A stretch of 64,000 bases of DNA, from NCBI RefSeq assembly GCF_900638305.1, contig NZ_LR134506.1, positions 2,170,001 to 2,234,000 of the forward strand, read 5' to 3'. This stretch comes from Porphyromonas cangingivalis (GTDB lineage Bacteria; Bacteroidota; Bacteroidia; Bacteroidales; Porphyromonadaceae). The position numbers were made by a program, and so were the translations under genes. Of the stretch, positions 2,225 through 55,188 are shown one piece after another; positions within the stretch are counted from its first letter, which is position 1, and every line of letters begins with the position of its first letter. Under the pieces are notes generated by a model. That model was given only the letters and a program-made list of their open reading frames with translations, did no database searches and was not told where the DNA came from.

Positions 2225-2260
2225 CAGAAAGTATTCTGTTGCCTGATGGACTGTATTCTG
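2225..2260. repeat. 22-bp dyad repeat array A (CAGAAT type, 2 units)
   Basis: Two palindromic units of the form NNGAAN-gt-ATTCTG have centres at 2231.5 and 2253.5, exactly 22 bp apart. The second has a degenerate left arm (TGGACT). The array lies in the space before tRNA-Lys, about 90 bp upstream of its -33 element. The same core and spacing recur at 8805, 27574, 45701 and 52484. Confidence 0.8.
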
Positions 2261-2351
2261 TCGTGGGTCGGAGAGGTGTGAAAAAGGATGTCTTGGAGGG
2301 TGATTGTTGCTCGTGGGTGGAAAAGTTCGCAGAAAAAAAACTTAGAGATGT

Positions 2352-2383
2352 TTTGGTGAAATAAAAATAATCACTACCTTTGC
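2352..2383 (+). promoter_or_regulatory. Promoter of tRNA-Lys
   Basis: TTTG at 2352-2355, a 19-base spacer and TACCTTTGC at 2375-2383 match the Bacteroidota housekeeping promoter. The 19 bases from 2375 to 2393 are identical to the tRNA-Phe promoter and leader at 55301-55319. Confidence 0.85.
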
Positions 2384-2420
2384 AGAGCAAAAGCAAAGAA
2401 CATTGCTTGAGACTTCTGAT

Positions 2421-2496
2421 GACTCCGTAGCTCAGCTGGTAGAGCAAATGACTCTTAATCATTGGGTCGAGAGTTCGAATCTCTCCGGGGTCACCA
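2421..2496 (+). tRNA. tRNA-Lys (anticodon CTT)
   Basis: A 76-base cloverleaf. The acceptor stem pairs GACTCCG with CGGGGTC. The D-arm contains AGCTCAGCTGGTAGAGC. The anticodon stem pairs AATGA with TCATT around the loop CTCTTAA, giving anticodon CTT (reads AAG, Lys). The T-arm has GTTCGAATC. The CCA tail is encoded. Two terminator hairpins follow directly. Confidence 0.95.
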
Positions 2497-2499
2497 TCC

Positions 2500-2575
2500 A
2501 AGGGAGCTGATGAATAAGCCGAGGCTTAGACATCAGCTCCCTTTCTTTTTGCCCTCTTTACGAGGGCTTTTTTGT
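2500..2575 (+). terminator. Tandem terminators after tRNA-Lys
   Basis: The first stem pairs AAGGGAGCTGATG with CATCAGCTCCCTT and runs into TTCTTTTT. The second, at 2551-2574, pairs GCCCTC with GAGGGC and ends in six Ts. Two complete intrinsic terminators lie back to back. Confidence 0.85.
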
Positions 2576-3023
2576 GTTTGCTCTTCTCCTGTCCTGTGGT
2601 TACAGCGGGATGTTTTGTCTTTTAGTGATACCTGACGGGGGATCCTTTGAGGGCTTTGGGCTTCGATGGGAAACGAGGCTGTTTCGCTTTGCGATGGAGT
2701 TGAGTGCTTCTTTTAGGATAGGAGCCGAGCATTGAGATCGAGTTTAATGATCTTCGTCACCGTCTCGTAAGATCTTCGATATTAAGTTTAACGACTTTCA
2801 TCATCAAGTTTAACGACTTTCGTCATCAAGTTTAACGACTTTTTTCATCGTCTCGTACGATCTTTTTGGAGGGCACTTCGATATATCCCAAAGTGACCTT
2901 CTCCTGTACGAAGTGTACAACTCCGTGATATAGACGACTCATGAGGCGAAAATTGTGTATATTTGAGGGTTGTTGGGGTCGTTGGTAAGCAATCCCAAAG
3001 TGTTTAAGACAAAAGATATTTCT
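2576..3023. other. Intergenic region with 22-bp repeat array, no gene seen
   Basis: I see no convincing coding sequence between the tRNA-Lys terminators and the TPR gene. Frames in this stretch lack signal sequences or recognisable motifs. It holds repeat array F (2741-2864), and presumably the promoter of the TPR gene, which I could not place with confidence. Confidence 0.6.
2741..2864. repeat. 22-bp repeat array F (AAGTY...RACTT type, 6 units)
   Basis: The words GATCTT or GACTTT recur at 2749, 2771, 2793, 2815, 2837 and 2859, each exactly 22 bp from the last. The three central units are near-identical (AGTTTAACGACTTTCRTCATC). Each unit holds an imperfect dyad with AAGT and ACTT arms. There are no intervening spacers, so it is not a CRISPR. 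It ends about 160 bp upstream of the TPR gene start, and array G at 33687 is related. Confidence 0.85.
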
Positions 3024-6000
3024 ATGAAGAAGATCCTTCTGTTGCTTCCCCTCCTCGGTGGCATCCCTGCCGCCCATGGACAGGTCATCGATCGAACTAC
3101 CGATGTGTTGATGATGGCCAATGAGCTCACTGCGATCAAGAGCTACGTGGGAGTGACTTCGATACTTTCGGTAAGACATATAGATAAGTGGGTGTGCCCT
3201 TACTTCGATGAAGAGGCGGCTTACCTCAATGCCATAGCACAGGGTGCACTTCGTTCGCCCGAAGGGGAGACCAAGCTACTCGACTTTATCGAGCGTTATC
3301 CGCATTCGGCTTACAGACCTTATGCACAGATGAGGCTGGGTGAGTGGTACTTCGTACAGGGCAATTATAGAAGTGCGGCATATTGGTTCAAGCAGTACGA
3401 TCCGTTTTTGCTACCCGACGAGATGGCGCAGGCTTCGGACTACTACCTCTCGTTCTCATTGATGAGAGATGGTCGTGAGGAACAGGCTCTGGGACACTTC
3501 AGACCGCTCATAGGGACGAAGACTTTTGGTCGTGATGCCACTTTTTATAGCGGTTATATCCTCTCTCGACTTGGTCGTACGGACGAAGCTGTCGCTCTCC
3601 TTGATGATGTGAGCCACGACGGCGAGTATGGTGCTTATGCTTGCGCTTATATGGCGAGCGGACTTTTGGCAAAGGGGAGATACTCCGAAGCCATGGAGAA
3701 GGTGCGTGTCGGAGAGCGTCAAGATATACGAGACACCGAGGTGAGGCTCTCGCTCCTCAGAAGTGGTGGTCTGGCAGCCTCGGCTCTGAGCCAGAGAGAG
3801 GTTGCCATCAGTTATCTCCAGGATTATATGCGCTTGGCTCCCAAGGCCGGTCGCCTTGAGATGATCACGCTCGGCAAGGAGCTCTTCGATGCCGGAAGGT
3901 ACGAGGAGTCAGTCGAGTCTTTGGCGAAGGCATCGGAGGAGAGGCATCCCGACTTCATGGGGCAGTTGGCTCTCTACTATGAAGGGTTGGGACAGCTGGC
4001 TCTGAATCATCCCATGAAGGCTCATATCGCTTTCGATCGTGCGGCAGAACTGGATGTCTATCCGAGATTGACCGAGACGGCGAGGTTCAATGCGGCTTTG
4101 GCTCTCTACAGCAACAATCCTGGTAAGATGAATGAGGGTACAGATCGTTTGGCTGACTATCTCGTCCATTATCCGCAGGGAGAGTATGCCGCTCAGGCCG
4201 TCGATCACCTCAAGGATGCTTACCTCAATGATCCTGATGTGGACAAGGCTTTGGCCTCCATCGAGCGCATCACCCCTCTGCCTGCGCCTCTTCGCAGGAC
4301 TCTCGAAAAGGTGCGTCTGCGTAGTGCCAATACCCAGCTGGATAAGGGGAATACTTCTTCCGCAAGCCGTCAGTATGACAACATCATTCGGAACAACGCC
4401 GACCCTGCGAGTGTGGCTGAGGCTCATCTCTGGAAGGGTGAGGTCGCTTATCGTGAGGGTAGGTATGGTGATGCCATAGCTTCGACACAGAGTTATCTCA
4501 AAGTGCGTCCTCAGGATACGCCTGTCAATCCGAACGCTTACTACAACCTCGGCTACGCCTACTACAACTTGTCTCGCTGGCGTGAGGCCGAAGAGAGTTT
4601 CCGTGAGTTTTTGAGGGTCAGACCCGATGCTACGGCTGATGAACAGACCGTTATTTACAGCCGATTGGCTGATATTGAGGTCTTCGGACGTAACTACTCC
4701 CGAGCTTTGTCACTCTACGATACTGCCATCCAAAAGGGTGGAAATGAAGCAGACTATGCTTACTTCAAGAGGGGGATGACCTATGGTTACCTCAAAGAAT
4801 ATAGGACAAAAGCGGATTATCTCGCTCTCCTGAGCTCCAAGTATCCGTCATCCAAATATGTTCCGGAGGCTCTTTATGAGCAGGGACGTGCTCTTTCGTT
4901 GCTCAACGATGAGCGGTCGGCTCAAGGGGTCTTCCAGAGGGTCTTCGAGCAGTATCCCAACACAGATATCGCACCTAAGGCCGGTGTGCAGTTGGCACTC
5001 TCTTACTTCAATATGCAGAAGCTCGATGAAGCCGCTCGCATCTACGAGATGGTAGCACGCAAGTACCCAAAGACCGATGAGGCCAAGGCTGCCATGGAGG
5101 ATCTCAAGGGGATCAGTATCGAGCTCAACAGAGTCGATGAGTATGCAGCCCTTGCTCGTGAGATAGGGCTGGGCAGTGCGGTGTCGGCTTCGGAAATGGA
5201 TTCGTTGGCTTATCTCGCTGCGGAGAAGATCGTCGGTGAAGGTAAGGCCTCGAGATCCATCGAGGCTCTTGATAAGTATGTCGCTGCTCATCCTGACGGA
5301 GTCTTTGTCAAGAAGGCACTGTACACCAAGGCTCTTGTGCATTACCAAAATAAGGCTTACCGTGAGGCGACATTGACACTTGAGCAACTTTTGCCCGATC
5401 TTGTCGGTGATGCCGAACTCGAAAGGGATGCTTACAAGGTGCTTACCGCCGCTTATGTCGACTGGGGACGTCCCGACAAGGCTGCCGAACTTTATCTCGC
5501 TCAGGCACTCAAGACAAAGAGCCTTACGGATCGTAGTGTATTCGTGAGCAAAGCTGTCGATAATGCTCTTGCTTCGAGCTCCGAAGACTTCATCCTCTCC
5601 ATGGCTGATGATATCGCAAGAGACCGCATCTCGATCAACGAAAAAGTCAAGAGTCGTGTCTATGGCGAAGCTCTTCATATCCTTGCGCGCTCAAACCGCA
5701 AGCAGGAGGCCTTGATCTATGCCGATCGTATCTTGATGCTCGGTGATCACGGTCAGCACGCTCGTGCCGGTGTCGTCAAGGCTTTGGAACTCTATGACAG
5801 AGGGCAGAACACTCAGGCTCGTAATGCTGCTCAGAAGGTCATCGACATGGGTACCACAGACACCTATTGGTTGGCAAGAGCATTTGTCTTGCTTGCCGAT
5901 ACCTATATCAAGGAAGGTGACAAGGTGAGTGCCAAGACTTATCTCGAAGGGGTCAAGAGCAACTACAACAACAAGACCGATGGTATCATCAATATGATCA

Positions 6001-6029
6001 ATGAACGACTCTCAAAGATCCAAAACTAA
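3024..6029 (+). CDS. Large periplasmic TPR-repeat protein
   Basis: The start at 3024 gives a signal peptide (MKKILLLLPLLGGIPAAHG, cleavage before Gln-Val); an upstream in-frame ATG at 2970 would add 18 residues with no function. The mature protein of about 980 residues is almost entirely helical TPR or TPR-like repeats. Examples are motifs such as YPHSAYRPYAQMRLGEWYF, AYYNLGYAYYNLSRWREAEESF and YPKTDEAKAAMEDL, each with the small-residue/Tyr pattern of TPR helix pairs. Such proteins are scaffolds for envelope complexes, and no catalytic motif is visible. The stop is 13 bp from the start of the following outer-membrane barrel gene, so the two probably act together. The exact partner or cargo is unknown. 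Confidence 0.8.
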   Translation: MKKILLLLPLLGGIPAAHGQVIDRTTDVLMMANELTAIKSYVGVTSILSVRHIDKWVCPYFDEEAAYLNAIAQGALRSPEGETKLLDFIERYPHSAYRPYAQMRLGEWYFVQGNYRSAAYWFKQYDPFLLPDEMAQASDYYLSFSLMRDGREEQALGHFRPLIGTKTFGRDATFYSGYILSRLGRTDEAVALLDDVSHDGEYGAYACAYMASGLLAKGRYSEAMEKVRVGERQDIRDTEVRLSLLRSGGLAASALSQREVAISYLQDYMRLAPKAGRLEMITLGKELFDAGRYEESVESLAKASEERHPDFMGQLALYYEGLGQLALNHPMKAHIAFDRAAELDVYPRLTETARFNAALALYSNNPGKMNEGTDRLADYLVHYPQGEYAAQAVDHLKDAYLNDPDVDKALASIERITPLPAPLRRTLEKVRLRSANTQLDKGNTSSASRQYDNIIRNNADPASVAEAHLWKGEVAYREGRYGDAIASTQSYLKVRPQDTPVNPNAYYNLGYAYYNLSRWREAEESFREFLRVRPDATADEQTVIYSRLADIEVFGRNYSRALSLYDTAIQKGGNEADYAYFKRGMTYGYLKEYRTKADYLALLSSKYPSSKYVPEALYEQGRALSLLNDERSAQGVFQRVFEQYPNTDIAPKAGVQLALSYFNMQKLDEAARIYEMVARKYPKTDEAKAAMEDLKGISIELNRVDEYAALAREIGLGSAVSASEMDSLAYLAAEKIVGEGKASRSIEALDKYVAAHPDGVFVKKALYTKALVHYQNKAYREATLTLEQLLPDLVGDAELERDAYKVLTAAYVDWGRPDKAAELYLAQALKTKSLTDRSVFVSKAVDNALASSSEDFILSMADDIARDRISINEKVKSRVYGEALHILARSNRKQEALIYADRILMLGDHGQHARAGVVKALELYDRGQNTQARNAAQKVIDMGTTDTYWLARAFVLLADTYIKEGDKVSAKTYLEGVKSNYNNKTDGIINMINERLSKIQN

Positions 6030-6042
6030 TCGCACCAAGAAT

Positions 6043-7848
6043 ATGAAGAATATCCTATATCTCTCTGTAATGCTCGTTGCCTCGGCTCTGATCTCTCACG
6101 ATGCTGTGGCACAAGTGGCAAAGAAGGATTCGCTCAATAGAGAACTCACGCTCGAACGCGACTTCGTCCCGACTCAGGATCAGGTGCAGAAGTCGTTCTT
6201 CAGTCCGCTGGCGACGAAAAAGAGTTCGCCCCTCGCACCTCTACGTTTTGTCAACGACTCGTACAGTATCGGTGCAAAGATTGAGCACAGAGTTTTTGAC
6301 CCCATATACAACGACAGAGCACCTGAGTCTCTCGATCAGAAGGGCTTTGTACGTGTGTATGGAGGCTTTCCCGGAGTGCTCGGACTCAATGTCGGAGGCA
6401 ACTTCACCAATGGCAAGGACAGTCAGTTTGATCTGTCTCTCAACCATTTCACGAGGAAGTACCTCGGGCGGAACACCCTTCCGGCTCCACTCAAGACCCT
6501 CCGTACACATGACACGGACTTCACTCTCGGCTACGCTCGTAAGTTGGCACTCTCCACACTTCGTGTCAGGGGACATTTCTTCTACGACATAGAGGCCCTT
6601 TATGGGTCACATAACGGTCAGCCGGCAGCTCTGTTGCTTGAGTCTTATGACTTCAAGCCACCTTATCCCTTGATCAATAATTATGGTGCGATCCTTTCGG
6701 GCGAAAGGACTTATGCTCCTATCTCTGTCGGTTCGAATTGGTATGCAAGCACTTTCGGGACGTTCTCTTATGTCGGAAAGAATGATCCGACCTTGGTCAA
6801 AAATGATCCGGATCCTCTCTATTCGGGAGGAGAGCGTATGCTTACCTCTGAATTGAGACTTGCCAATCGCTCGACGCTGGCGTACGAGATCTCAGATCTT
6901 TGGAAGTTTGATGTCGGTGCGGAGATTGACCTCCGCAATTATCCCAAGCTCGTTGTCAAGTATCCGATCAAAAATCTCCTCATCCTCGGACTTCGCCCCT
7001 CTGTCTCTTACAAGGGAGATCACTTCGAGATGCATGTGGGAGGGCGGGTTCAGTATGCCAACAGGGCTTCATCTTCACTCGTCTTCTCTCCCGATGCCTC
7101 TTTCCGCTTCCGTCCTATCGACATCTTCTCACTCTTTGCGAAGGTCGACGGAGGCACTGCTGCCATGGATCTGAGAGAAGTGTACAAGTACAACAAATAC
7201 TTCTTCGGTCCCTCTATCGCCAATGCCACCGAGACATCCAAGTACAGGGTCATCGCAGGGGTCGAGCTGGGCAATCTCTCCGGCTTGTCCGTCACGCTCC
7301 AAGGTGGATACGTGGACTATCGTGACTTCGTCGATTGGGAGCAACGCAAGCTCGTCACAGATCTTGATGGCTCGATCACCTTACCCCTTTTCGTGTATGA
7401 TCTCCGTCATCGCGACAACGTCAAGAAGACCTACGGCAACATCTCTGCGAGGTATGTCTCTCAGGCCGGTCTCCGTCTCTCTGCTTCGGCACAGTACAAT
7501 CGTTACATCACTTCGGACATGACAGATAAGGAGGACAAGCCTCTGACTGTCCTCGGCTTGCCCAAGCTCGAAGTCCGTGCTTCGGCGGTGTACGATATCA
7601 ATTCTCGCATGAGTCTTCAGGCCTCTTACACCGGACTTTTCGGGATGGCGTTTGAAGATGTGGACGAGCCCGGCAAGTATGTCCACACCACGGTCAATGA
7701 ACTTAGTGCAGAGTTTTCTTATCGACTCTCTCGTCGTGTGGGGTTATCCGTCATCGGTACCAATCTGCTCAATCTGAGAAATGTCCGATGGAGACACTAC
7801 GAACAGAGAGGTTCGGGTATCCTCGGAACAGCCACTATAACGTTCTAA
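6043..7848 (+). CDS. Outer-membrane beta-barrel protein, TonB-receptor-like without plug
   Basis: Start 6043 is chosen because it gives a signal peptide (MKNILYLSVMLVASALISHDAVAQ). The 601-residue product is rich in alternating aromatic/polar beta-strand patterns (FDLSLNHFTRKYLG, LRASAVYDINSRMSLQASY). It ends in a short strand terminating in Phe (GTATITF), as expected for a BAM-inserted barrel. The penultimate region, VGLSVIGTNLLNLRNVRW, resembles the C-terminus of TonB-dependent receptors, but I see no plug domain or TonB box. It directly follows the TPR gene (13 bp gap). Substrate and role are unknown; an outer-membrane channel or scaffold is inferred. Confidence 0.75.
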   Translation: MKNILYLSVMLVASALISHDAVAQVAKKDSLNRELTLERDFVPTQDQVQKSFFSPLATKKSSPLAPLRFVNDSYSIGAKIEHRVFDPIYNDRAPESLDQKGFVRVYGGFPGVLGLNVGGNFTNGKDSQFDLSLNHFTRKYLGRNTLPAPLKTLRTHDTDFTLGYARKLALSTLRVRGHFFYDIEALYGSHNGQPAALLLESYDFKPPYPLINNYGAILSGERTYAPISVGSNWYASTFGTFSYVGKNDPTLVKNDPDPLYSGGERMLTSELRLANRSTLAYEISDLWKFDVGAEIDLRNYPKLVVKYPIKNLLILGLRPSVSYKGDHFEMHVGGRVQYANRASSSLVFSPDASFRFRPIDIFSLFAKVDGGTAAMDLREVYKYNKYFFGPSIANATETSKYRVIAGVELGNLSGLSVTLQGGYVDYRDFVDWEQRKLVTDLDGSITLPLFVYDLRHRDNVKKTYGNISARYVSQAGLRLSASAQYNRYITSDMTDKEDKPLTVLGLPKLEVRASAVYDINSRMSLQASYTGLFGMAFEDVDEPGKYVHTTVNELSAEFSYRLSRRVGLSVIGTNLLNLRNVRWRHYEQRGSGILGTATITF

Positions 7849-8753: not shown

Positions 8754-8804
8754 ATATTGGGCTTAGATATTGTAGGTTGATAAGCAAAGGATGACGGCAG
8801 ACGA

Positions 8805-8884
8805 CAGAATGCTTTTTGACCCCTGCCGTAATACATCTCGGAGTGCGACAGAAGGCATTCTGTCTGAGGACAGAAATAGATTAT
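8805..8884. repeat. 22-bp dyad repeat array B (CAGAAT type, 3-4 units) upstream of clpB
   Basis: Unit centres fall at 8811.5, 8833.5 and 8855.5 (CAGAAT-gc-TTTTTG, CGTAAT-ac-ATCTCG, CAGAAG-gc-ATTCTG). A left half-unit CAGAAA occurs at 8871, in phase with a fourth. The spacing is exactly 22 bp. The array ends about 45 bp before the clpB start and may lie in its leader. Confidence 0.8.
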
Positions 8885-15066: not shown

Positions 15067-17028
15067 CTATGTGAGCGCAATCTCTCCCTCTTTTACCCAA
15101 GAGATGGGAGCATACTCGGAGATGAAGAAGTCGATCGCTTCCTTTATGTGTGTGGTGGGGATATCGAGTGTGGTCGAGACTTCTTTGACAGACACCGTGG
15201 TTATCCCCTGCTTGTGGAGGTCACTCAGGTAGCTCTCTATGATATCGATCGTGCGGTAGGACAAGGCCTTGGGGGTGTGCCGACGACAGTAGTCACAGAG
15301 TCCGCAGGGTTTAGGATCTGTCTCTCCGAAGTACTCCATCAATGTCAGCACACGACATTTGTCATCACTTTTGAGATAGTCCAGCATACATTCGAGCCGC
15401 TCCTTTTCGCTGTTGTATCGGCGTTCGTAGATCTCTTCGGTGAGGTAGATCCGAGACTTGGGAAGGCGGTCGAGTGTGTACCGGATATAGGTCGAACGCT
15501 TGCCCGGGACATAGTCGATGACCTTCCATCGGCTGAGGTCTATGAGTGCCTTGTAGATGACTTCGGCAGAGAGCCCGGTGCGTTGGGATATGAGGCTCTC
15601 ATCTATGAATGCATAGTCTGTAAATACTCCCGTGTAGCTTCTCAATATCGCTTCGATGATGTCTTCGTAGACGGGTTGGTCATGCTCAAAGAGATTGTAA
15701 AGACTATTGCGTGAGACAAGGAAAATCAGCCTCGACGAAAACTCCTTGTCCTCCATATAGTCGATAAATCCTCCGATTGTCAGCAGTGAAAGTGCCGATA
15801 GGACTTGGAAGGCTTGGAACTTGAATACGTGGCAAAACTTAAATAGATTGAACTCATACAATTGTCCCTGTCCTGATCCTTCGGCAATCTCGAAGAAGTT
15901 GCCCAACGCCTCATAGATCCTCCGTACAGTGTCCTTGGAGGGGTAGCTGTTGGCCAGACGCTTGTACATATTTCGCTCATCCTCATTGGGATTGAAGAGG
16001 AGCACTGCAAACGAAGGTTTATTGTCGCGACCTGCTCGTCCTGCTTCCTGATAGTAGTTTTCGGGCGAGGTCGGGATGTCCGGATGTACGACAAGGCGGA
16101 CATCGTTTTTGTCTATCCCCATCCCGAAAGCATTGGTACAGACCATCACACGGATGTCTCCCTTCTGCCACTCGTTTTGTTTCCGAGCCTTGACCTCCGA
16201 ACTCAGTCCTGCGTGATAGTAGTCCGCCGAGATCCCTGCATCTTTCAGTAGAGCGGCATACTCGGCTGTGCGCTTGCGACTGCGGGTATAGACGAGAGCA
16301 CTTCCGGCGACATTGTTGATGATGTGTATGAGTTCACGAGGTTTGTCCGCCGTTTCTCGTACGACATAGGAGAGGGCTTTGCGGTAGAAGCTGCGTTTGA
16401 ATAGCTTCCGATCCTCTCCGAAGCTCAGTCTGTCCATGATGTCTCGGACGACGAGTGGAGGTGCTGTCGCTGTAAGTGCGAGCACGGGTACATCGGGAAT
16501 GAATTTCCTGAAGTCCGATATAGCCAAGTAAGAGGGACGAAAGTCATAACCCCACTGACTGACACAGTGGCTCTCATCGACGACGACAAAAGATATGTCG
16601 AGCATCGAGAGGCGTTTGAGGAAGGTCTCGTTGGCCAACCGTTCGGGTGATACATAGAGGAACTTGTAGTCGCCGTATGTGCAGTTGTCGAGTACTGTGA
16701 GAGATTGTCTCCGTGATAGTCCGCTATGGAGATAGGCTGCTTTCAGGTTGAGAGACTTGAGGGTATCTACCTGATCTTTCATCAAAGCGATGAGAGGGGT
16801 GATGACGATACAGAGGCCTTCGCACAAGAGTGCAGGCACCTGAAAAGTGATTGACTTCCCTCCACCTGTGGGCATCAATGCAAGTGTGTCATGACCTGCA
16901 AGAATGGATGCAATGACTTCCTCCTGCATAGGGCGGAAGGTGTCGTAACCCCAATAGGTACGTAAGATGTCTACCGGTGTGAGGGATGTGTTGTACTTCA
17001 GAGCCATGGCGGAGAGTTCTTGGTACAA
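15067..17028 (-). CDS. recQ: ATP-dependent DNA helicase RecQ
   Basis: RecQ is a 3'-5' SF2 helicase acting in recombination and fork repair. The 653-residue protein has Walker A MPTGGGKS (about 52-59), the DESH box with [11 protein letters not shown] (151 onward), and the RecQ arginine-finger region [16 protein letters not shown]. It also has the zinc-binding domain with cysteines in [10 protein letters not shown]...CGLCDYC, and a C-terminal winged helix. No HRDC domain is visible after it. It starts 15 bp after the recJ stop, implying an operon with recJ, whose 5'-3' exonuclease works with RecQ. A later Met (residue 8) is an alternative start. Confidence 0.93.
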
Positions 17029-21705: not shown

Positions 21706-22296
21706 ATGAAGTTGGCTATTTTCGCTTCGGGAAGTGGTTCGAATGCCGAAGCTATTGTCAGGTATTTGCATGATAACCAGCCTGAAAAAGGCATTCGGGT
21801 GGCTTGTGTCATCACGAATAAGGCAGATGCTTATGTCCTTGATCGGGCAAAGAGACTCGGGATCCCGGCACTGTATCTGACGTCGGATCAACTCAAGTCC
21901 CAGGAGACACTGCTGCCTATATTGAGAGAGTACGGAGTCAGTCACATTGTCTTGGCCGGTTATCTGGCATTGATACCGAAATTCTTACTCGAAGCCTTCC
22001 CTCAGAGGATCGTCAACATCCATCCCGCCCTTCTACCCAAATATGGAGGCAAGGGGATGTATGGTATGCACGTGCATGAGACGGTCAAGGCAGCAGGAGA
22101 GTCTGAGACGGGTATCACGATCCATGTCATCGACGAGGAGTACGACAGGGGGACGACTCTTTTTCAAGCACATACGAAGGTCTCTCCCGAAGATACACCG
22201 GAAGATATAGCACAGAAGGTACACGTGCTTGAGCACCGATATTTCCCCGAGGTCATTGCCTGTTGGGTGCTGGGTGATCCACAGCCGGAGCTTTGA
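21706..22296 (+). CDS. purN: Phosphoribosylglycinamide formyltransferase
   Basis: PurN transfers a formyl group from 10-formyl-THF to GAR in purine synthesis. The N-terminal MKLAIFASGSGSNAEAIV is the GAR-binding start. The catalytic triad is visible as Asn104 and His106 in VNIHPALLPKYGG and Asp147 in DEEYDRG. The 196-residue length is normal. It is divergent from acpP and followed by a strong terminator. Confidence 0.95.
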   Translation: MKLAIFASGSGSNAEAIVRYLHDNQPEKGIRVACVITNKADAYVLDRAKRLGIPALYLTSDQLKSQETLLPILREYGVSHIVLAGYLALIPKFLLEAFPQRIVNIHPALLPKYGGKGMYGMHVHETVKAAGESETGITIHVIDEEYDRGTTLFQAHTKVSPEDTPEDIAQKVHVLEHRYFPEVIACWVLGDPQPEL

Positions 22297-22384
22297 TGTC
22301 TCCAATAGCTTGAGGATCATAAGATTGACCCCTCTTGGTGGCATCTTTACGAGAGTCTCACGAAAAAGGTCATAGGAGGCGAGC

Positions 22385-22450
22385 AAAAAAGTCCAGGGAC
22401 TTGATGTCATAAGTCGTATACTTTGACAAATCAAGTCCCTGGACTTTTTT
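22385..22450. terminator. Bidirectional terminator between purN and the amidotransferase/dipeptidase gene
   Basis: A perfect 21-bp inverted repeat (AAAAAAGTCCAGGGACTTGAT and its complement) separated by 24 bases ends in six Ts on either strand, between convergent genes. Confidence 0.92.
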
Positions 22451-22505
22451 GTTCTCTTTTCTAAGTGTCGGCGGTGCTTGTCGGAGTGTGGGCTTTGAGG
22501 TCGCC

Positions 22506-24311
22506 TTACTTGAGGTTGGAGACCAACTGTGGTTCTACCGCACGGAGGACACGGAGCACGTTCTCGCCCCACATCTTGCGGATGTCGCTGTCACTGAAGC
22601 CTCGCCGAACAAGCTCTATCGTCAGGCGGATGATGTGCGAAGCATCTCTACATCCGATGACTTCGCCATCGCCATCAAAGTCTGTCCCTATCCCCACATG
22701 ATCTGCCCCCACGAGGTTGTGGGCATGGACGATATGATCCACAAAGTCGAGGAGAGATGCTCGGTCGGAGTCTTTCGATACGAACCCTTTGTACATGCAC
22801 ATCTGGATGAGTCCCCCCGTACCGGCTATGGCACGGATCTCATCATCCGTGAGGTTGCGAGGGTGATCGCAGAGGGCACGGCAGGAGGAGTGCGAAGCGA
22901 TGACGGGGGCTTCGGTGATCGAGAGGACATCCTTCACGGTGCTACTGCCTGCGTGGGAGAGGTCCACGAGGATGCCGAGGCGGTTCATCTCTCTGATCAC
23001 TTCACGCCCGAAGTCGCTGAGACCACCGTGCGTATTTTGGCTCTTCGAAGCTGAGTCGCAGATATCGTTGTCTCCGTTGTGACAGAGGGTGATGTAGCGC
23101 ACGCCTTTTCGGGCATAGTGTGCGAGTCGGGAGAGGTCACGAGCGATGGGGTAGCCATTCTCTATCCCCTTCATGATACTCTTTCGTCCCTGCTGTTTAT
23201 TGGTGATCAAGTCCTCCGACACGACAGCAACGACAGCCCCTTCGCTTGTCTTTGACATCACTTCATCGATGGCATCGAGGGTGCGCTCGGTGTAGTCGTA
23301 AGCCCTTTTGTATCCCTCTTCGTCGAGAGCACCCTGAGGGATATAAGCCACCATGAACGATGTGTCAAGTCCGCCATCCTTCATACGTGGCAAGTCGACA
23401 AGTGCCCGATCTGCTCGTCGGGTGAAGTCATAATCCTCTTTGCCCGAAAAGATCATTGGTGTGTCACAATGTGTGTCGACCGTCAGCATCGAAGCGTGGA
23501 GCTTGCGAGCCTTGCGGTAGAGGCATCCTTCGCCGACGATGAAGTCGAAGAGTTTGGTATGAGGTTCGGAGCCATGACAAGCAAGTGCCTCGGGGTGCCA
23601 TTGGACACCGAGGATGTTGTGTTCGGGGTAGTAGTCCACACCTTCGATGACCCCATCGGGAGCGGTTGCCGTGATGGTGGCGCAGGGTGGAAGATCGGAG
23701 ACGGCTTGGTGGTGAAACGAATTGACCATCACTTCGTCCGCTCCGAGGACTTCCTTCAGGCGTCCTTCGGGATGGACACTCACACTGTGCCAAAGCTCGT
23801 AGCGTGTGGCCGGCTGGTTGTGTCCGATGACATTCCCCTTTTCGCTCGGCAGGTCTTGGTAGATCTTGCCACCGAGGACGACATTGACGAGTTGCATCCC
23901 ACGACATATCGCCAGCATCGGGATGGAGAAGCGCAGTGCCGCATGGATGATCGTCAGGTCGAAGAAGTCCTTGTGGGTATTCGCCCGACCCATGTGGGGA
24001 GATGGTGCTGCATCGAACCATGCAGGCATAAGGTCTCCTCCGCCTGACATGATGACGGCATCGCACCTCGACACGCACTCGGTAATGACCTTCGGATCGG
24101 TGCTGAAGGGGATGATCATCGGTATGCCACCTGCTCGGCGTACACTCTCTATATAAGTGTCCGTAAGAGTATTTTCATCCTCGTGGTGGTTCGACGAGAT
24201 GCCGATGACAGGGGTGTCACGCCAGTCTATCTCTTGGTCAAGGACAAGGTCTCGGACTTCTTTGAGCGAAAAACGAATCTCCGAGAGTGGTGTGGTGTTG
24301 CTTATCGTCAT
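22506..24311 (-). CDS. Fusion of gamma-glutamyl hydrolase-like amidotransferase and M19 dipeptidase
   Basis: Two enzyme domains are joined in one 601-residue protein. Residues 33-265 are a class I glutamine-amidotransferase/peptidase C26 domain of the PuuD type. The nucleophile Cys136 lies in LAICRGMQLVNV, and His239/Glu241 lie in GVQWHPEAL. Residues 275-595 are a membrane-dipeptidase (M19) domain with the zinc HxD in VDTHCDTP (His281, Asp283), LVDLSHAG, and GIGTDFDG. The start at 24311 avoids a 29-residue upstream extension. There is no signal peptide, so a cytoplasmic role in cleaving gamma-glutamyl compounds and then dipeptides (for example from glutathione-like peptides) is inferred. It is monocistronic. 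Confidence 0.85.
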   Translation of the reverse strand: MTISNTTPLSEIRFSLKEVRDLVLDQEIDWRDTPVIGISSNHHEDENTLTDTYIESVRRAGGIPMIIPFSTDPKVITECVSRCDAVIMSGGGDLMPAWFDAAPSPHMGRANTHKDFFDLTIIHAALRFSIPMLAICRGMQLVNVVLGGKIYQDLPSEKGNVIGHNQPATRYELWHSVSVHPEGRLKEVLGADEVMVNSFHHQAVSDLPPCATITATAPDGVIEGVDYYPEHNILGVQWHPEALACHGSEPHTKLFDFIVGEGCLYRKARKLHASMLTVDTHCDTPMIFSGKEDYDFTRRADRALVDLPRMKDGGLDTSFMVAYIPQGALDEEGYKRAYDYTERTLDAIDEVMSKTSEGAVVAVVSEDLITNKQQGRKSIMKGIENGYPIARDLSRLAHYARKGVRYITLCHNGDNDICDSASKSQNTHGGLSDFGREVIREMNRLGILVDLSHAGSSTVKDVLSITEAPVIASHSSCRALCDHPRNLTDDEIRAIAGTGGLIQMCMYKGFVSKDSDRASLLDFVDHIVHAHNLVGADHVGIGTDFDGDGEVIGCRDASHIIRLTIELVRRGFSDSDIRKMWGENVLRVLRAVEPQLVSNLK

Positions 24312-27573: not shown

Positions 27574-27631
27574 CAGAATGTATTCTGATGCCTGACAGAA
27601 TGCTTTCTGACCCACGACAGAAAACATTCTG
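27574..27631. repeat. 22-bp dyad repeat array C (CAGAAT type, 3 units)
   Basis: The cleanest array of its type. CAGAAT-gt-ATTCTG, CAGAAT-gc-TTTCTG and CAGAAA-ac-ATTCTG have centres at 27580.5, 27602.5 and 27624.5, spaced exactly 22 bp. It is 136 bp upstream of mutT and about 340 bp upstream of the TonB receptor. Confidence 0.9.
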
Positions 27632-27895
27632 TCAGGCTACAAAGATCCGCCATTCGTTTACGATCACTGACCTGAGGCTCCGGGGGGCTTTCAGCTCTTT
27701 CTGAAAGGACAGTCAAAAGACCTGCTGTGCAAGGTATTGGTTCATTGGGGATTATTCAAGTGTAAATGAAATGAAAACATTGGTTCTTTCACAATCTGCA
27801 GGCGAGGCTCCTTTGCCTAAAATCTCTGCTTTGCCCTCTTGGAGAAGACTCCGGTCTATTTATACAGGCAGAGCAACGTGAACGATATTTTGTGA

Positions 27896-33532: not shown

Positions 33533-33686
33533 AGTTGTGAATGTTGTTACTTGTGCGACTTGGAGGCCATAACGACTGCAAAGCCCTCTTTTTTCGGATC
33601 TTGGCAATCGGTTTGATTTTAGGCAAACGAAATTACACATTCCCTTCAATTTGGGCAATAGGTGGTCGGCGAAGGATACAAAAAAA

Positions 33687-33752
33687 GATCGTAAGACTTG
33701 TTTCATCAAATCATACGATCTGCGTTGTCAAGTCATACGACTTGTTTTGTCG
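33687..33752. repeat. 22-bp repeat array G (AAGTC-rTAy-GACTT type, 3 units)
   Basis: GACTTG or GATCTG recur at 33695, 33717 and 33739, spaced 22 bp. The third unit contains the near-palindrome CAAGTCATACGACTTG. The array lies about 155 bp upstream of the outer-membrane protein start and is related to array F at 2741. Confidence 0.85.
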
Positions 33753-33809
33753 TGTCCTTTGACCTTGTCTCGTGGCAGTGGACAGAGAGGGGGCAGGTGC
33801 TCTGACTCT

Positions 33810-45700: not shown

Positions 45701-45758
45701 CAGAAAACTTTCTGTCCCGAAATAGAATACATTCTGTTGCCTGCCGGAAAGTATTCTG
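45701..45758. repeat. 22-bp dyad repeat array D (CAGAAT type, 3 units) upstream of cbiK
   Basis: CAGAAA-ac-TTTCTG, TAGAAT-ac-ATTCTG and CGGAAA-gt-ATTCTG have centres at 45707.5, 45729.5 and 45751.5, spaced exactly 22 bp. The array lies between the lipB stop and the cobalt operon, 80-138 bp upstream of cbiK. Confidence 0.9.
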
Positions 45759-45847
45759 TCTGGCAACAAAAAGTTGTGTCACGAATGTGTTCGTTGGGAG
45801 AAAAAGTCGGATGGAGTTATTTTATTTGTTGATAAACGATACGATAT

Positions 45848-49500: not shown

Positions 49501-49679
49501 TCGTTGAGTGTGGTGATCTGTGGAGCCAATAAGGGAGTGTCTCCGAGTCGGGACTGAAGGTAGTGCATGAAGAACAACCTTGCCCTCCTATTGGGCAAGA
49601 ATATCCTGTACTTGTACAACTCCTTCTGGTGCTTTTCGAAGAAGTGTGTGGCGATCTGTTCGAGGAAAGGTGTCATCAT
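46575..49679 (-). CDS. AddB-like PD-(D/E)XK nuclease protein
   Basis: A 1034-residue protein of the AddB/RexB-like group used in double-strand break resection. The N-terminal half resembles an inactive helicase (YRIFLPNRRARLFFMHYLQ, IYIPDASEGLLPQKRA). The C-terminal third is the nuclease: a Cys in VVCPRQFYY (about 729), IDRIDLEGDCLRITDYKTG (Asp and Lys, about 888), and the Cys triplet CKHCPAFDLC near the end. The four cysteines fit an Fe-S cluster, as in AddB and Cas4. The AddA-type helicase that normally pairs with it is not adjacent in this window; the flanking genes are DUF4270 and lipB. Confidence 0.85.
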   Translation of the reverse strand: MMTPFLEQIATHFFEKHQKELYKYRIFLPNRRARLFFMHYLQSRLGDTPLLAPQITTLNEYITSSSRLVSGEKLILLFELYKCYVARLPEEKAESMTFEGFYQIGELILQDFQDLDKHRSDAQKLFRNLYELKELENELSYLDDTQKEAINSFLRPLPAKAEDAKPLLKSFLTFWDGLYDLYVSYKESLRNLGIGYDGMIMREVCDSIDAGKSTLGQDGVINVFVGLNALTPCEHRILKHLKESSETLFYWDYPSIPLQDKSPGAYFREYNLSHYPEPTGDDAIIRESIKSFPKVEVTAIPSSVAQTAYIGADLKALHETQPESMQDLRVAVVLPNERLLIPMLNNIPAEVRHLNVTMGYPVRETPPVALLEQLILIIRKQKNGPSAERQIWRGTDVIQLLSMSVLSPYLTEIREKMSENIIRRKHISLNGKTILTLAEEAFETLSIDVNDKAMALLRLIFVALPKEEDGGLSLFDYFIRLLRFLSASLISTPEDLTEWNKDIPSDTATSDDPSASFSAERAILPRLLYLTLEVQHTLTHWQREIDSLPLTIDTVADALLTVWRNARIPYSGEPLKGLQMMGVLETRGLDFDIVYIPDASEGLLPQKRAVSGIIPYSLRLGYGLPTYEWQDRTRAYNFFRLISRAKRVVLTYDSRKSDLSQGEPSRYIRMLHYIYGVDVEYKTADYPLSPLQKLDSNDVLHPELISAYQKSLQDPESGRALSPSRLKSFVVCPRQFYYTMIQEINAQESLRERIESNDLGTIIHNSLEALYQGFIERYDGIMDKGQLDEWLRKDNTEVSKLVLSKFRQHVFGKDDGQPLKGYNLIQYEYAVSQVKSIIRKDKDYPRQLKYVGGEMRLIDTLSLSNGSTINVKGFIDRIDLEGDCLRITDYKTGRDIYEISSNNDQPRLFNGAATQLLFYCHVIQKMSPEHPFRQQLPAFSTLRPIINKPHHRSKTGELIMKDSSSGRSVSTVIEDYASVQEWFEGFIDPLLCAIVDPTQTFAPQPSPTVCKHCPAFDLCEATARSTTGEIGEEE

Positions 49680-49702
49680 CGATAAGAGGTGTCTTGTCTC
49701 AA

Positions 49703-49755
49703 AAGAGAGGAGATCTCCATCATGGCCATGCCGTGACTCGGGGATCTCCTCTCTT
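49703..49755 (-). terminator. Terminator after the DUF4270 gene
   Basis: The stem AAGAGAGGAGATCTCC pairs with GGGATCTCCTCTCTT and on the minus strand is followed by TTTTG. It lies between DUF4270 and the AddB-like gene, which are in the same direction. Confidence 0.8.
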
Positions 49756-49825
49756 CTATGAGTTCTCCAATTTTGGGTGGAGCTAAACCTTCATTACTTT
49801 GTGTTAACTCTGTCTTAAAAGGGGA

Positions 49826-51262: not shown

Positions 51263-51357
51263 CGGGATAAGTGTATTGTCTTTGGTGTGATAATGTCGTT
51301 TCAAAAAAAGCATCCGTCCTACCTCTCACACTCAAGTGCAAAAGGCTGTCGGTCGGA

Positions 51358-52155
51358 TCAGAGGGTCGCGTAGAAGTCATCCACGGCCTTCACCAACTCT
51401 TCGGGCTCGTGGTAGTCCAAGTACTTCTTGCCCGAGCCGTGGATCGCCTCCAGCAGTTCGGGACTGATCTCCTTCGTTGAGATCACCATGCCGTCGATGT
51501 ACTTCAGCACGAGCTGGACGAAGGTCTCCTTGTCCAATGCGGTGCCATCGAGTAGAGGTGATGTGATGTTGTCAAAGCCCAAGACCCTTGTGAGCTCTTC
51601 GCCGAAAGGTTGTTGGGGAGTCTGGTCGTAAGCCGAGAAGACGATCTTTGCCTGTGCGAGTGCCGGCTCATCTTTGTAGAGTGTCCTCAGATAGAGTGGG
51701 GCAAGCCCTGTGAACCAACCTTGGCAGTGGATGATGTCCGGTACCCAGCGTAGCTTTTTGATGGTCTCGAAGACCCCGCGAAGGAAGAAGACAGAGCGTT
51801 CGCTATTGTCCGGATAGAGTGCCCCCGACTCATCGTGGAGGTTGCCTTTGCGGCTGAAGAAGTCGTCACTGTCGATGAAATACACCTGCATCTTGGCAGA
51901 GGGGAGCGAGGCTACCTTGACGACGAGTTGATGTACCTTGTCGTCGATGACGAGGTTCATGCCTGAGAGACGGATCACCTCGTGGAGCTGGTTGCGACGT
52001 TCATTGATCGTGCCATAGTTGGGCATGAATGTACGGATGTCATACCCGAGTTCTTGAATCCCTTGGGGCAAGAACTGTGAGATCTTACCGATAGGGCTGT
52101 CTTCGATATATGGATGAATCTCTTGAGCTAAGAATAGGACTTTTTTTGCGGTCAT
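51358..52155 (-). CDS. Short glycogen/starch synthase-like protein (GT5 N-terminal domain only)
   Basis: The start at 52155 (MTAKKVLFLAQEIHPYIEDSPIGKI) gives 265 residues, about half of a full glycogen synthase. The GT5 N-terminal Rossmann domain is recognisable: GIQELGYDIRTFMPNYG, ERSVFFLRGVFETIKK, and PDIIHCQGWFTGLAPLYL, matching the DWHTG region. The C-terminal GT1-like nucleotide-sugar domain is missing, and the usual KxGGL near the start is replaced by SPIGKISQFL. This short form is a known Bacteroidota type paired with DUF4270. Whether it has synthase activity is unclear. Confidence 0.8.
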   Translation of the reverse strand: MTAKKVLFLAQEIHPYIEDSPIGKISQFLPQGIQELGYDIRTFMPNYGTINERRNQLHEVIRLSGMNLVIDDKVHQLVVKVASLPSAKMQVYFIDSDDFFSRKGNLHDESGALYPDNSERSVFFLRGVFETIKKLRWVPDIIHCQGWFTGLAPLYLRTLYKDEPALAQAKIVFSAYDQTPQQPFGEELTRVLGFDNITSPLLDGTALDKETFVQLVLKYIDGMVISTKEISPELLEAIHGSGKKYLDYHEPEELVKAVDDFYATL

Positions 52156-52483
52156 AAACGTAAAAAGATTGTTCAAATTCCCTTCCATACACAAATGTGC
52201 ATGAAAAGTGCAACATACTTAGCAAAGATACGATTTTTTGCGCAATTAACCGCAGGTTTTTCAAATGGGGTGAGAGGGGGTGAATTTCTGTGTCATAGGT
52301 GTTTCGGATGTCAAGGGTGTTTGGGAGGTGTCCGCATCGCCTCTGTGCCGGTATCTGTTCGAGAAAAAAGGTGTAGGCTTGTGGGTGTCCGTGTTTTTCC
52401 TCCTGTGAGACCTTTCGTGCTTTTTTGTCGGGAATGCTTCGGGGCTTATCCTTTCCTGCCCTGCATGTTTTCGAGGAGTACCT

Positions 52484-52562
52484 CGGAATGTGTTCTATGT
52501 GCCGACAGAATCCATTCCGGGAGGGGATAGAAAGCATTCTGTCGACCGACAGAATCTTTCCG
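52484..52562. repeat. 22-bp dyad repeat array E (CAGAAT type, 4 units)
   Basis: CGGAAT-gt-GTTCTA, CAGAAT-cc-ATTCCG, TAGAAA-gc-ATTCTG and CAGAAT-c-TTTCCG have centres at 52490.5, 52512.5, 52534.5 and 52556. The spacing is 22, 22 and about 21.5 bp (one base deleted in the last). It is about 330 bp upstream of the GT5 gene. Confidence 0.85.
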
Positions 52563-52690
52563 AGTCATGGTGGGATGTTTTTTTTTATTGTCCGGGAGAT
52601 TGGGATCGTTTCGTAGGGTGGCGGAGAGGCTCGTTCGTCGGTGCTCGCAGGTCTCTTGTAATGTCTGTGAGAATAGGACTCGTAAGCTGA

Positions 52691-52750
52691 TAAAAAAAGA
52701 AGAGACCTCGCCGAGATGGATCCGGTGGATCCGATCGACGAAGTCTCTCT
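52691..52750 (-). terminator. Terminator after the 451-residue lipoprotein gene
   Basis: On the minus strand AGAGACTTCG...GGATCC pairs with GGATCC...CGAGGTCTCT, and TTCTTTTTTT follows. It starts about 20 bp after the lipoprotein stop. Confidence 0.75.
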
Positions 52751-52768
52751 ATCGTAACTGTATTGAAT

Positions 52769-54124
52769 TTATGCGTTTCTGAATCCGTGTGCAACGAAGA
52801 CAAAGGTTACTCCCTCCACAGCCACTTCGTTTGCAAACGTGAGGCGTACGGTCACCCGGAGCTTCGCGTCTTGGATGACGGCAGACACGAGTTCGAATCT
52901 TGGGTTTTCGAGGTACAGATCGCCATTCTCTTGTGTGATGCCACTTCCGCAAGAGATGATGTCGTTCATGCCCTTTGTGTGGTAGTCCAAGGCTTCACCT
53001 TTGTAGGAGAACTGAGCTTGCTTGATCCAATTCATGATGCCCGATTTGAGCTTGTCACTCATGTCCTTACCCTCGGTGAAGTCTCCTTTGAGCTTCTTCT
53101 TGAGGGTCTCATCCAAGGTCGCGCTGGTGCTGATGTCGATATCCTTTTTAAGCTCGGTCAGAGGCTTGAAGTTGTTTACTTCTTTTCTCAAGGTCGCCAG
53201 TTCTCTGTCTGAATCCTTATCTCTTAGGCTGACGGTAAGCCATAGTGCATTGTTGTTGTCGTCTCCTTGGTGTCCGTTGTCGGAGAGTTCGACCACATAT
53301 TTGTCGTGGTCATACGAGAGCATATGTCCGCTGTATAGCCCGAGGTGCATAAATACTCCGCGCATATATTTCTGTGGTGCAAAGTTTTCGACGATGCTGA
53401 CTTTGTGATCGTAGTAGTCCATCGGTCTCAGCGGTAATGTGGCATAGGATGAACTCGAGAAACCCTTGTAGCCGATCTTGAAAGTGATGCTTTCTTTGGC
53501 GCGATCATACCTCAAGTCGATGATTTTGACATACTTCATGTCCTCTTCAGTAAGGATGTACTGCTGTCCCTGGGTGTTCGACGAGATAAACGACACGAAG
53601 CGTGCAAGATATTCGGTGTCATACATCTCGGTTTTGTTGTTGATGTACAGAGGGTCGAGGTCAAAGGTCTTGAAGAGCTCTTCCCCCTTGACCTTCCATG
53701 TGGCATACGCTCTGATCCCGATCTCCGAATCTGACGGGCGTATCGCAAAGCCTGAAAATGCCATCTTTTGACTATGTTTCTTTCCATCGATGAGAGCTTC
53801 TCGGATGTCGAGGGTGAATGTCCCCTTGGTATCGTCACGATCCGTGAGGGTGGCATCCTTGATCTCAATCGTCTTCGAGCCGACCTTTTTCGCTTCGTGT
53901 ACGGATCTCACCAGAGCGTCCACGGCTTCCACGGTCATTGTGGTGCTCCAGTTGTAGTACTGAGCTATCTCCTCAGCAGTGAGATTTTGCTGCTGAGGGT
54001 CTTCTTTGGATCCGCCCGGATTTTCGGGCTTTGGTTCTTCAGGCTTAGGTGAGGGCTTGTTGTCGTGATCACATGCTGAAAGTGCTATCATCAGCACCAT
54101 AAGATATCCTACAAATTTCTTCAT
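52769..54124 (-). CDS. Lipoprotein of unknown function
   Basis: A 451-residue protein with a lipoprotein signal (MKKFVGYLMVLMIALSAC) and a Pro/Glu-rich linker (about 22-48: KPSPKPEEPKPENPGG). A large soluble part of mixed helix and strand follows, ending in VEGVTFVFVAHGFRNA. No domain or catalytic motif is recognised. It is monocistronic, with a TATATTTG box about 65 bp upstream on the same strand (54194-54187) and a terminator downstream. It is probably outer-membrane anchored. Confidence 0.65.
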   Translation of the reverse strand: MKKFVGYLMVLMIALSACDHDNKPSPKPEEPKPENPGGSKEDPQQQNLTAEEIAQYYNWSTTMTVEAVDALVRSVHEAKKVGSKTIEIKDATLTDRDDTKGTFTLDIREALIDGKKHSQKMAFSGFAIRPSDSEIGIRAYATWKVKGEELFKTFDLDPLYINNKTEMYDTEYLARFVSFISSNTQGQQYILTEEDMKYVKIIDLRYDRAKESITFKIGYKGFSSSSYATLPLRPMDYYDHKVSIVENFAPQKYMRGVFMHLGLYSGHMLSYDHDKYVVELSDNGHQGDDNNNALWLTVSLRDKDSDRELATLRKEVNNFKPLTELKKDIDISTSATLDETLKKKLKGDFTEGKDMSDKLKSGIMNWIKQAQFSYKGEALDYHTKGMNDIISCGSGITQENGDLYLENPRFELVSAVIQDAKLRVTVRLTFANEVAVEGVTFVFVAHGFRNA

Positions 54125-54272
54125 AATTGATGTTTTCGATCTTAATGTTTAATGGAGTCTTTACTTAATCTTCTTTCTTAGCCTTGCAAATATAGTAATT
54201 ATTTTTAGAAACGAGGGTGGCCTTTATAAACAATGTGTCATGCGAAAACATTATCATCTCTTTTTTTGTTTG

Positions 54273-54280
54273 TATCTTTG
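54273..54280 (+). promoter_or_regulatory. -7 element of slyD promoter
   Basis: TATCTTTG lies 38-45 bp before the slyD start and fits TAnnTTTG. The expected -33 is weak. Confidence 0.55.
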
Positions 54281-54317
54281 AAGATATTTAATGATTCTAA
54301 CACAAAATATTATTACA

Positions 54318-54920
54318 ATGAAAGTAGATAAAAATCTATTGGTCAAGGCACAGTACACGCTATATACAGTCGCTACTGATGGCAAGGAAGAGATGGTCGA
54401 GCAGACAGCTCCTGAGATGCCATTGGTGTACATTCAGGGTATGGGATTGATGCTCCCTGAGTTCGAAAACAACCTCCTCGGCCTTGCACAGGGTGAGAAG
54501 TTTGACTTCGTCCTTACTCCTGAGCAAGCATACGGCGAGGTGTCTGAAGACTACATCACTACCCTCCCTAAGGAAGTGTTCCTTGTCGATGGCGAGTTCG
54601 ACGAAGAAGTCGTATTCGTAGGCGGACAGGTGCCTATGCTCGATGCGGATGGCAACCAGCTTCTCGGTAAGGTGCTCGAAATCACCGATAACGGTGTGAA
54701 GATGGACTTCAACCCATTCCTCGCAGGACAGACTCTACACTTTGTAGGTGAGATCCAAGAAGTGTCTGAACCAACTCCCGATGAGGTACAAGCTATCCTC
54801 AATCCTCATGCAGGTGGCGGATGCTGTGGCTGTGGCTCAGAAGAACACGGTGGTGGCTGCTCATCAGGCGGTTGCTCGACAGACAGCTGTGGCTGTGGTT
54901 CTGGCGGCTGCGGTTGCTAA
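54318..54920 (+). CDS. slyD: SlyD-like FKBP-type peptidyl-prolyl isomerase with metal-binding tail
   Basis: The start at 54318 (MKVDKNLLVKAQYTLYT) gives 200 residues. The FKBP half has PLVYIQGMGLMLPEFENNLLGLAQGEKFDFVLTPEQAYGE. The inserted-flap domain is DYITTLPKEVFLVDGEFDEEVVFVGGQVPM, and FKBP resumes with VKMDFNPFLAGQTLHFVGEI. The last 35 residues are a Gly/Cys/His-rich tail with at least ten cysteines, the SlyD-type nickel or zinc binding tail. It is cytoplasmic, acting in folding and possibly metal delivery. It is monocistronic with a strong terminator. Confidence 0.92.
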   Translation: MKVDKNLLVKAQYTLYTVATDGKEEMVEQTAPEMPLVYIQGMGLMLPEFENNLLGLAQGEKFDFVLTPEQAYGEVSEDYITTLPKEVFLVDGEFDEEVVFVGGQVPMLDADGNQLLGKVLEITDNGVKMDFNPFLAGQTLHFVGEIQEVSEPTPDEVQAILNPHAGGGCCGCGSEEHGGGCSSGGCSTDSCGCGSGGCGC

Positions 54921-54942
54921 GCCATAACTTCTCCTCATAATG

Positions 54943-54999
54943 AAATCAACGATTATATCCTCCCTCTTATGGGATCTCGATATAATCGTTGATTTTTTT
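54943..54999 (+). terminator. Terminator after slyD
   Basis: A perfect 17-bp stem (AAATCAACGATTATATC with its complement) has a 19-base loop and is followed by a run of seven Ts. Confidence 0.92.
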
Positions 55000-55090
55000 G
55001 CTCATCACTCGGCTTTTACTTATACTATCGGCTCTTAGGGCCTCTCCTGCACTGCTTCCTACCCATCCTTGCGATCCTCCAAAATGAATT

Positions 55091-55188
55091 GTCTAACTCG
55101 ACGACAACGGTTGTCTAATTCAATTCATCAAGTTGTCTAATTCGATCTCAAAGGATGTCTAACTTGATTTGTCACTTTGCTAACCTCA
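55091..55188. repeat. 22-bp repeat array H (GTCTAA type, 4-5 units)
   Basis: GTCTAA recurs at 55091, 55113, 55135 and 55157, spaced exactly 22 bp, with a degenerate TGCTAA near 55178. The third unit and its flank form the imperfect palindrome ATCAAGTTGTCTAATTCGAT. The core differs from the other arrays, but the period is the same. It lies about 140-240 bp upstream of tRNA-Phe. Confidence 0.88.

Follow-up and report, generated by a model that had tools for sequence, protein, structure and literature searches.

Intergenic arrays of 22-bp dyads in Porphyromonas cangingivalis: predicted sites for an oligomeric DNA-binding protein

What keeps the spacing of short intergenic repeats constant while their sequences change? 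The question is raised by a 64,000-nucleotide stretch of Porphyromonas cangingivalis DNA (contig NZ_LR134506.1, positions 2,170,001 to 2,234,000; hereafter the window), in which period 22 stands out in a self-similarity (lag) scan. The window contains nine arrays of dyads with a 22-bp period: class A (CAGAATnnATTCTG) accounts for five and class B (AAGTCnnnnGACTT) for four. All nine clear a cut-off of two units and 22 bits, which nothing in the reversed sample does. A preliminary description of the window had recognised the period and the arrays but counted eight of them, in three sequence classes; its third type, the array with TTGTCTAATTC at 55086, is assigned to class B by the scoring, with the lowest value of the nine (37.0 bits), and GTTGTCTAAC occurs in other class B arrays. 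Judging from sequence, we consider it somewhat probable that the arrays are DNA-level binding sites for an oligomeric protein, with their dyads on one face of the helix.

The survey of this genome combined the window with 40 stretches of 20 kb at even intervals, together 864 kb of 2,404,857 bp, with a cluster defined by at least 28 identical bases of 44. Lag 22 gave 43 clusters, lag 44 gave 11, lag 30 gave 6 and lag 24 gave 5, these being the runners-up among lags 16-59; lag 23 gave none. Class A or B arrays overlap 42 of the 43 lag-22 clusters, and the remaining one lies inside a predicted gene. With unit models refined on the sample, arrays of at least two units number 34 for class A and 39 for class B, and the same score picks out none in reversed sequence. 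Three or four units are usual: 18 and 13, respectively, of the class A arrays, and 11 and 21 of the class B arrays. Pattern matches in the whole genome numbered 118/120 for class A (reversed pattern 5/5) and 151/167 for class B (reversed pattern 6/11). Sequence models placed at least 77 class A and at least 103 class B loci on the chromosome; these are lower bounds, from 150 of 634 and 150 of 1132 candidates scored, with counted loci at E <= ~2e-5. Loci of the two classes do not cluster with each other (4 A loci lie less than 1 kb from a B locus, against 6.6 expected). A single segregation site, among the functions first proposed, is not indicated, because the loci are scattered round the chromosome. 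Enrichment at the terminus in the manner of matS was considered when class A hits looked denser opposite dnaA, and was dropped at a Rayleigh p of ~0.15 for the model-based list; the class B distribution is marginal (p 0.046, towards 1.7 Mb).

The class A unit is CAGAAT-nn-ATTCTG, frequently with GA before and TC after, and then about four free bases; class A flanks have no common sequence beyond ~15 bp. The class B unit is AAGTC-nnnn-GACTT, with spacers such as GATGACGA, and its arrays are polar: one end carries an A-run, and of the units three are strong and the fourth is weak (30 of 39 arrays could be anchored in this way). The internal dyad claimed for all arrays is clear in class A and weaker in class B. 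Site pairs within 110 bp of each other fall at multiples of 22 in 46 of 48 cases for class A, the other two being at 23 and 45, and in 52 of 52 cases for class B, pairs from one array not being independent. In a dyad test controlled by permuted unit columns, 19 of the 43 lag-22 clusters passed at p<0.05. AT/GC alternation along the unit was also tried as a common feature; by permutation test it is not general (mean z -0.30 in the clusters of this genome, and 1.39, 2.39 and 1.63 in the relatives G003, G014 and G023).

In class A, belonging to the same array does not make units more similar. Half-site identity is 0.662 within and 0.688 between arrays, spacer identity is 0.377 and 0.381, and centres are likewise no closer within; for the inner spacer, identity within arrays is 0.268 where column composition predicts 0.300. 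Recent tandem duplication is therefore excluded for class A, and the phase has been held though the spacers have lost their likeness. Oriented class B units show a small excess, 0.607 within arrays and 0.547 between (38 arrays). The uniformity within arrays that had been reported accordingly shrinks to the half-sites in class A and to this small excess in class B. Conserved dyad half-sites, unconserved spacers and a fixed helical phase, the properties of operator arrays read by oligomers, are all found in class A; class B keeps the phase, and its spacers are conserved in part. Two class B cases deserve separate mention: a pair 1.6 kb apart with a longer common flank (L014:4271-4380 and 5852-5961), a local duplication, and the longest class B array of the sample (L075:12817-13014), with nine units by the model, six of which are shown nearly identical.

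Does the distance recur where the sequences do not? A sequence-blind period scan covered 722 kb from the 13 genomes of the family with readable samples. Stretches were drawn from 15 family genomes; L056 and L058 (G005, G008) and L052 (G001), which read as masked, were left out, two G001 stretches overlap by ~11 kb, and L038, L051, L055, L121 and L122 come from contigs located via a gene match. Lag 22 gave 35 clusters in 10 of the 13 genomes, or 29 when L064, L065, L127 and L128, picked near earlier hits, are excluded; 25 of the 35 pass the dyad test. G004 shows lag 23 only (plus its double, 46), G007 shows lag 44, as does G010 with two weak clusters, and lag 23 is also present in G018 and G023, so that period 22, 23 or 44 is found in 13 of 13 genomes. 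Lags divisible by three, which coding repeats often produce, were treated separately; the other lags (46 aside) gave 5 clusters in total. In 342 kb sampled from other families of the order, lag 22 occurred once, in an AT-rich cluster, and many other lags had between one and four clusters. The idea that spacing matters more than sequence, and that an oligomeric protein reads it, is thereby supported as far as sequence can support it, by 98 of 100 site pairs at multiples of 22 and by 13 of 13 relatives. The period-23 arrays (L127:897-1021 and L128:2332-2459 in G018, L055:143-238 in G004) have dyads recognisable by eye (CGAGTTACCATAACTCG, GAACTTAGA), and the spacing is therefore 22 or 23 depending on the lineage or family.

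The sequences carried at this spacing mostly differ: TAGTTGCAACTAAG in G002, CTAATACCGGTATTAG in G006, CTATATAG in G012, TGTCGACA and TTTTAACTAAAA in G024, and TTTCCACT, CTCGCGCC and TATATAAATCG in G023. The arrays found in G001 (AAGTTAGACAACCTT) are similar to those of class B with GTTGTCTAAC, and the TTTCCACT array of G023 has likenesses in G013, G014, G021 and G042, so some array sequences are common to certain relatives. In 40 other genomes the class A pattern reaches at most 27 matches on one strand; family members mostly lie near the reversed control, G023 being slightly raised (10/6, reversed 1/0). In G009 and G024 the reversed control is commoner than the class A pattern itself (37/26 and 57/57), which suggests other array families there. 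Several genomes from other families lie 2-7 times above the class A control (G026, 27/17 against 4/2; G034, 21/22 against 5/7; G036, 23/26 against 7/5), with matches that looked AT-rich. For the class B pattern, G011 alone among the 40 is clearly above control (9/15 against 3/1).

Spacing and sequence can be compared directly in the close relatives G023 and G022, G023 belonging to another genus of the family than the present genome (G000). Seven orthologous array pairs, comprising only loci with a fetched partner, were aligned and stand at the same place in both species. The arrays (857 sites) show 1 indel event and 70 substitutions, other noncoding DNA (7746 sites) 68 indel events and 755 substitutions (Fisher P=0.013 for indels, P=0.14 for substitutions). 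With indels rarer in arrays and substitutions not significantly so, spacing thus appears to be better kept than sequence in this pair, the arrays having been called by period in one of the species.

We infer a protein reader, its dimeric or oligomeric form and its role as follows. A protein dimer would sit on each 14-18 bp dyad, and typically three or four dimers would line up next to one another along a single helix face, since the dyad centres are 22 bp, or about two turns, apart. Two dominant site classes make up at least 180 loci in this genome, in every type of intergenic gap and with indifference to strand. Because the same geometry mostly carries other sequences in relatives, the protein would have kept an old geometry while its sequence preference could change. 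Its role would most likely be to form an intergenic nucleoprotein patch, for chromosome architecture or insulation, rather than to control single promoters.

Several observations weigh against such binding sites. The dyad test is failed by 24 of the 43 clusters of this genome and by 10 of the 35 in relatives. Some relatives have period 23 or 44 instead of 22. Class B has a fixed A-run end, units that depend on position and a slight local likeness, and its arms show more G-T than A-C mismatches (122/100, 126/98). The G023/G022 arrays lie within dispersed repeats of ~120-330 bp, which resembles a copied element more than a set of independent sites, and the indel comparison is biased because period was used to call the arrays in one species of the pair. 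A few arrays form long palindromes that span units with hardly a mismatch: at L007:13158-13193, L005:5013-5078 and L018:1647-1690 neighbouring units are reverse complements, perfectly or with differences at the centre only, and template switching is a possible origin. No array-binding protein was found, and searches of the genomes for RAYT (Y1_Tnp) and AsnC ruled these out as general readers.

Both had been candidates on account of known systems. Repetitive extragenic palindromes and bacterial interspersed mosaic elements (REP/BIME), served by RAYT, are like the present arrays dispersed intergenic palindromes with lineage-specific sequences; we know of no fixed 22-bp phase in them, and Y1_Tnp has no match in G000, being present in 16 of the 31 genomes searched. 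The Lrp/AsnC site consensus is YAGHAWATTWTDCTR, which the class A half-site CAGAAT resembles, and Lrp/AsnC is a multimeric protein on phased sites. One AsnC match was found in G000, and none at E<=0.001 in G001 (assembly 94 percent complete), G009 and G014, despite their lag-22 arrays.

It is possible, if rather doubtful, that the arrays are instead bodies or remains of elements resembling miniature inverted-repeat transposable elements (MITEs), in families of each lineage's own, the dyads being sites of a transposase family with fixed oligomer geometry. Two array families are dispersed in G023 and G022 (47/45 and 60/78 matches), occupying in G023 at least 40 separate places for the first family (40 candidates scored) and 34 for the second; some places match on both strands, hence more matches than places. 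Aligned copies of the first family are alike over at least 120 bp, their whole length. At L111:11024-11358 in G023 a ~330-bp repeat surrounds a 22-bp array and recurs at 34 separate places, compared with the roughly 10-20 copies of the MITE groups in PMC4596501. G007 (L121, L122; for example L121:13995-14118) has a dispersed element in which two 22-bp dyads alternate with period 44 (GACGGATAG... and TTTCCAGTAGGAAA), found at 8 places in 40 kb, which extrapolates to several hundred copies in 2.1 Mb. The fixed A-run end and unit order of class B also suit a mobile element, as does the precedent of BrickBuilt, a P. gingivalis MITE built of 23-nucleotide repeats (PMC4596501). Yet no terminal inverted repeats were seen, because class A flanks are nearly devoid of common sequence beyond ~15 bp; class A units lack common descent inside arrays; and the seven compared G023/G022 loci stand at the same place in both species. 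The element-like G023/G022 copies and the fixed class B end keep a mobile element among the explanations, and such an origin is compatible with present use by a protein, as old elements may have supplied the sites.

A described element close to the arrays is BrickBuilt of P. gingivalis, which the repeat descriptions of PMC4596501 present as a MITE with a 23-nucleotide unit, dyad symmetry and predicted stem loops, up to 22.8 copies of the unit, and a leader and tail with IS5-like ends that some elements lack. With the present arrays it shares, on that account, the intergenic place, the short tandem unit, the dyad symmetry and the many loci. Membership was considered and rejected: the unit length gives no clusters at lag 23 and 43 at lag 22, likeness among repeats is as high between arrays as inside them in class A and only slightly higher inside them in class B, and in place of a leader and tail with terminal inverted repeats the 30 anchored class B arrays have one fixed A-run end and fade at the other. 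Long lag-23 arrays of near-identical units in G023 (L112:4947-5522 and 16128-16544) are probably BrickBuilt, a label that follows from the 23-nucleotide length. The same source mentions direct repeats of 41, 23 and 22 nucleotides in P. gingivalis W83, with no exact locations where it mentions them, so the earlier remark that Porphyromonas genomes carry repeats of about this length was sound. The W83 repeats are like the present arrays in bacterial family and 22-nucleotide tandem unit, and are reported there for one species. Prokaryotic MITEs are reviewed in PMC10969869, and PMC5771137 reports that short repeats of 3 to 31 bp were left unannotated.

The arrays might also be operators of an ordinary regulator of the adjacent genes, which we consider improbable. 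Gene calls were made by a small custom script and Pfam-checked for 19 window proteins. The arrays are intergenic, as first described: 4 of 73 lie in a predicted gene or at a stretch edge, in a sample that is 84 percent coding. Seven of the nine window arrays do lie 50-170 bp from a gene start, the distance noted before, but in the 864-kb sample the median is ~200 bp with a wide spread. By gap type, with expectations derived from gap length, 69 arrays divide into 22 divergent (18.4 expected, P=0.19), 37 tandem (39.3 expected) and 10 convergent (11.4 expected, P=0.40). The preliminary description had seen no array between convergent genes and a bias towards promoters; the array at 22367-22454 lies in a convergent gap, and there is no overall bias. 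Class A alone leans that way: of its 31 arrays 2 are convergent, somewhat fewer than the 5.1 expected (P=0.10), and 12 are divergent, somewhat more than the 8.2 expected (P=0.10). Class B has 8 of 38 in convergent gaps and 10 in divergent gaps, and the overall convergent count is what gap length predicts. Nor do the 19 window neighbour proteins, 15 with a Pfam family and 4 without, have an evident common theme.

RNA hairpins between neighbouring units, as intrinsic terminators or 3-prime stabilisers, are very improbable. The class B T-run at one end would suit them, as would the stem loops predicted for BrickBuilt repeats in PMC4596501 and the slight tendency of tandem-gap arrays to lie nearer the end of the upstream gene (relative position 0.40 on average for n=17 and 0.42 for n=20). 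For an intrinsic terminator the T-run should be on the strand of the upstream gene; among the 30 anchored class B arrays (15 tandem, 8 divergent, 6 convergent and 1 without a gap call), polarity in tandem gaps is with the genes in 7 and opposed in 8, and the 10 class B arrays in divergent gaps fit no better. Adjacent arms pair about as well as non-adjacent arms of the same array, at 0.634 and 0.624 or 0.543 and 0.566 in class A, and at 0.541 and 0.564 or 0.398 and 0.409 in class B. G-T and A-C mismatches are equal in class A (76/75, 90/92), and the class B G-T excess is as large between non-adjacent arms (393/318, 277/199). Since the two arms of a dyad match each other no better than they match arms of other dyads in the array, no selection on RNA fold or cruciform is seen; arm co-variation as a sign of either, suggested by eye in G012, finds no support in class A or class B. 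Within the window, Rfam matches nothing but the two tRNAs.

Functionless replication-slippage minisatellites of fixed unit length, an earlier suggestion favoured by the tandem form, the near-identical units at L075:12817 and the slight class B excess within arrays, are hardly credible, being refuted for class A (not fully for class B) by within-array identity that equals both the between-array value and the composition expectation, by a phase that has outlasted the likeness of the spacers, and by the same periods (22, 23, 44) family-wide.

Table 1. Dyad arrays of 22-bp period in the window
Class	Units	Position	Strand	Score (bits)	Context and source
A	2	2225-2268	.	41.8	upstream of tRNA-Lys
B	6	2740-2871	- (A-run anchor on - strand)	79.9	neighbours tRNA-Lys and TPR protein gene (Pfam); array by Tandem Repeats Finder and lag-22 scan
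A	4, including a weak first	8783-8870	.	46.8	upstream of ClpB/ClpC-like gene (Pfam)
B	4	22367-22454	+ (anchor weak, 9/12)	43.0	convergent gap; formyl transferase 21706-22296 (+) and peptidase C26/M19 22506-24311 (-) (Pfam)
A	3	27574-27639	.	73.3	divergent gap, NUDIX / TonB-dependent receptor genes (Pfam)
B	4	33686-33773	-	63.9	upstream of outer-membrane beta-barrel gene, - strand (Pfam)
A	4	45701-45788	.	67.7	lipoyl ligase and CbiK-like genes either side (Pfam)
A	4	52484-52571	.	57.6	
B, GTCTAATTC variety		55086-55173	+ (anchor weak, 8/12)	37.0	upstream of tRNA-Phe (ARAGORN)

Sequence is the usual mark of a repeat family. What recurs across this bacterial family is instead a distance, and the sequences differ between classes in one genome and mostly between species. 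We found no report of a 22-bp dyad phase or a family-wide spacing in the literature covered, the original descriptions of the P. gingivalis repeats lying outside that coverage. An array is present in 63 of the 267 intergenic gaps of at least 150 bp in the sample; if a protein does read the spacing, these gaps would be marked by a DNA-binding system that we have not found described. Tentatively, and as a conjecture we would not yet back, the spacing may amount to a family-wide code: Porphyromonadaceae chromosomes would be organised by paralogous oligomeric proteins of changing specificity and unchanging geometry, through hundreds of patches of three to five dyads, whose 22-bp phase would be older than the split of the genera and whose dyad sequences would have been replaced repeatedly.

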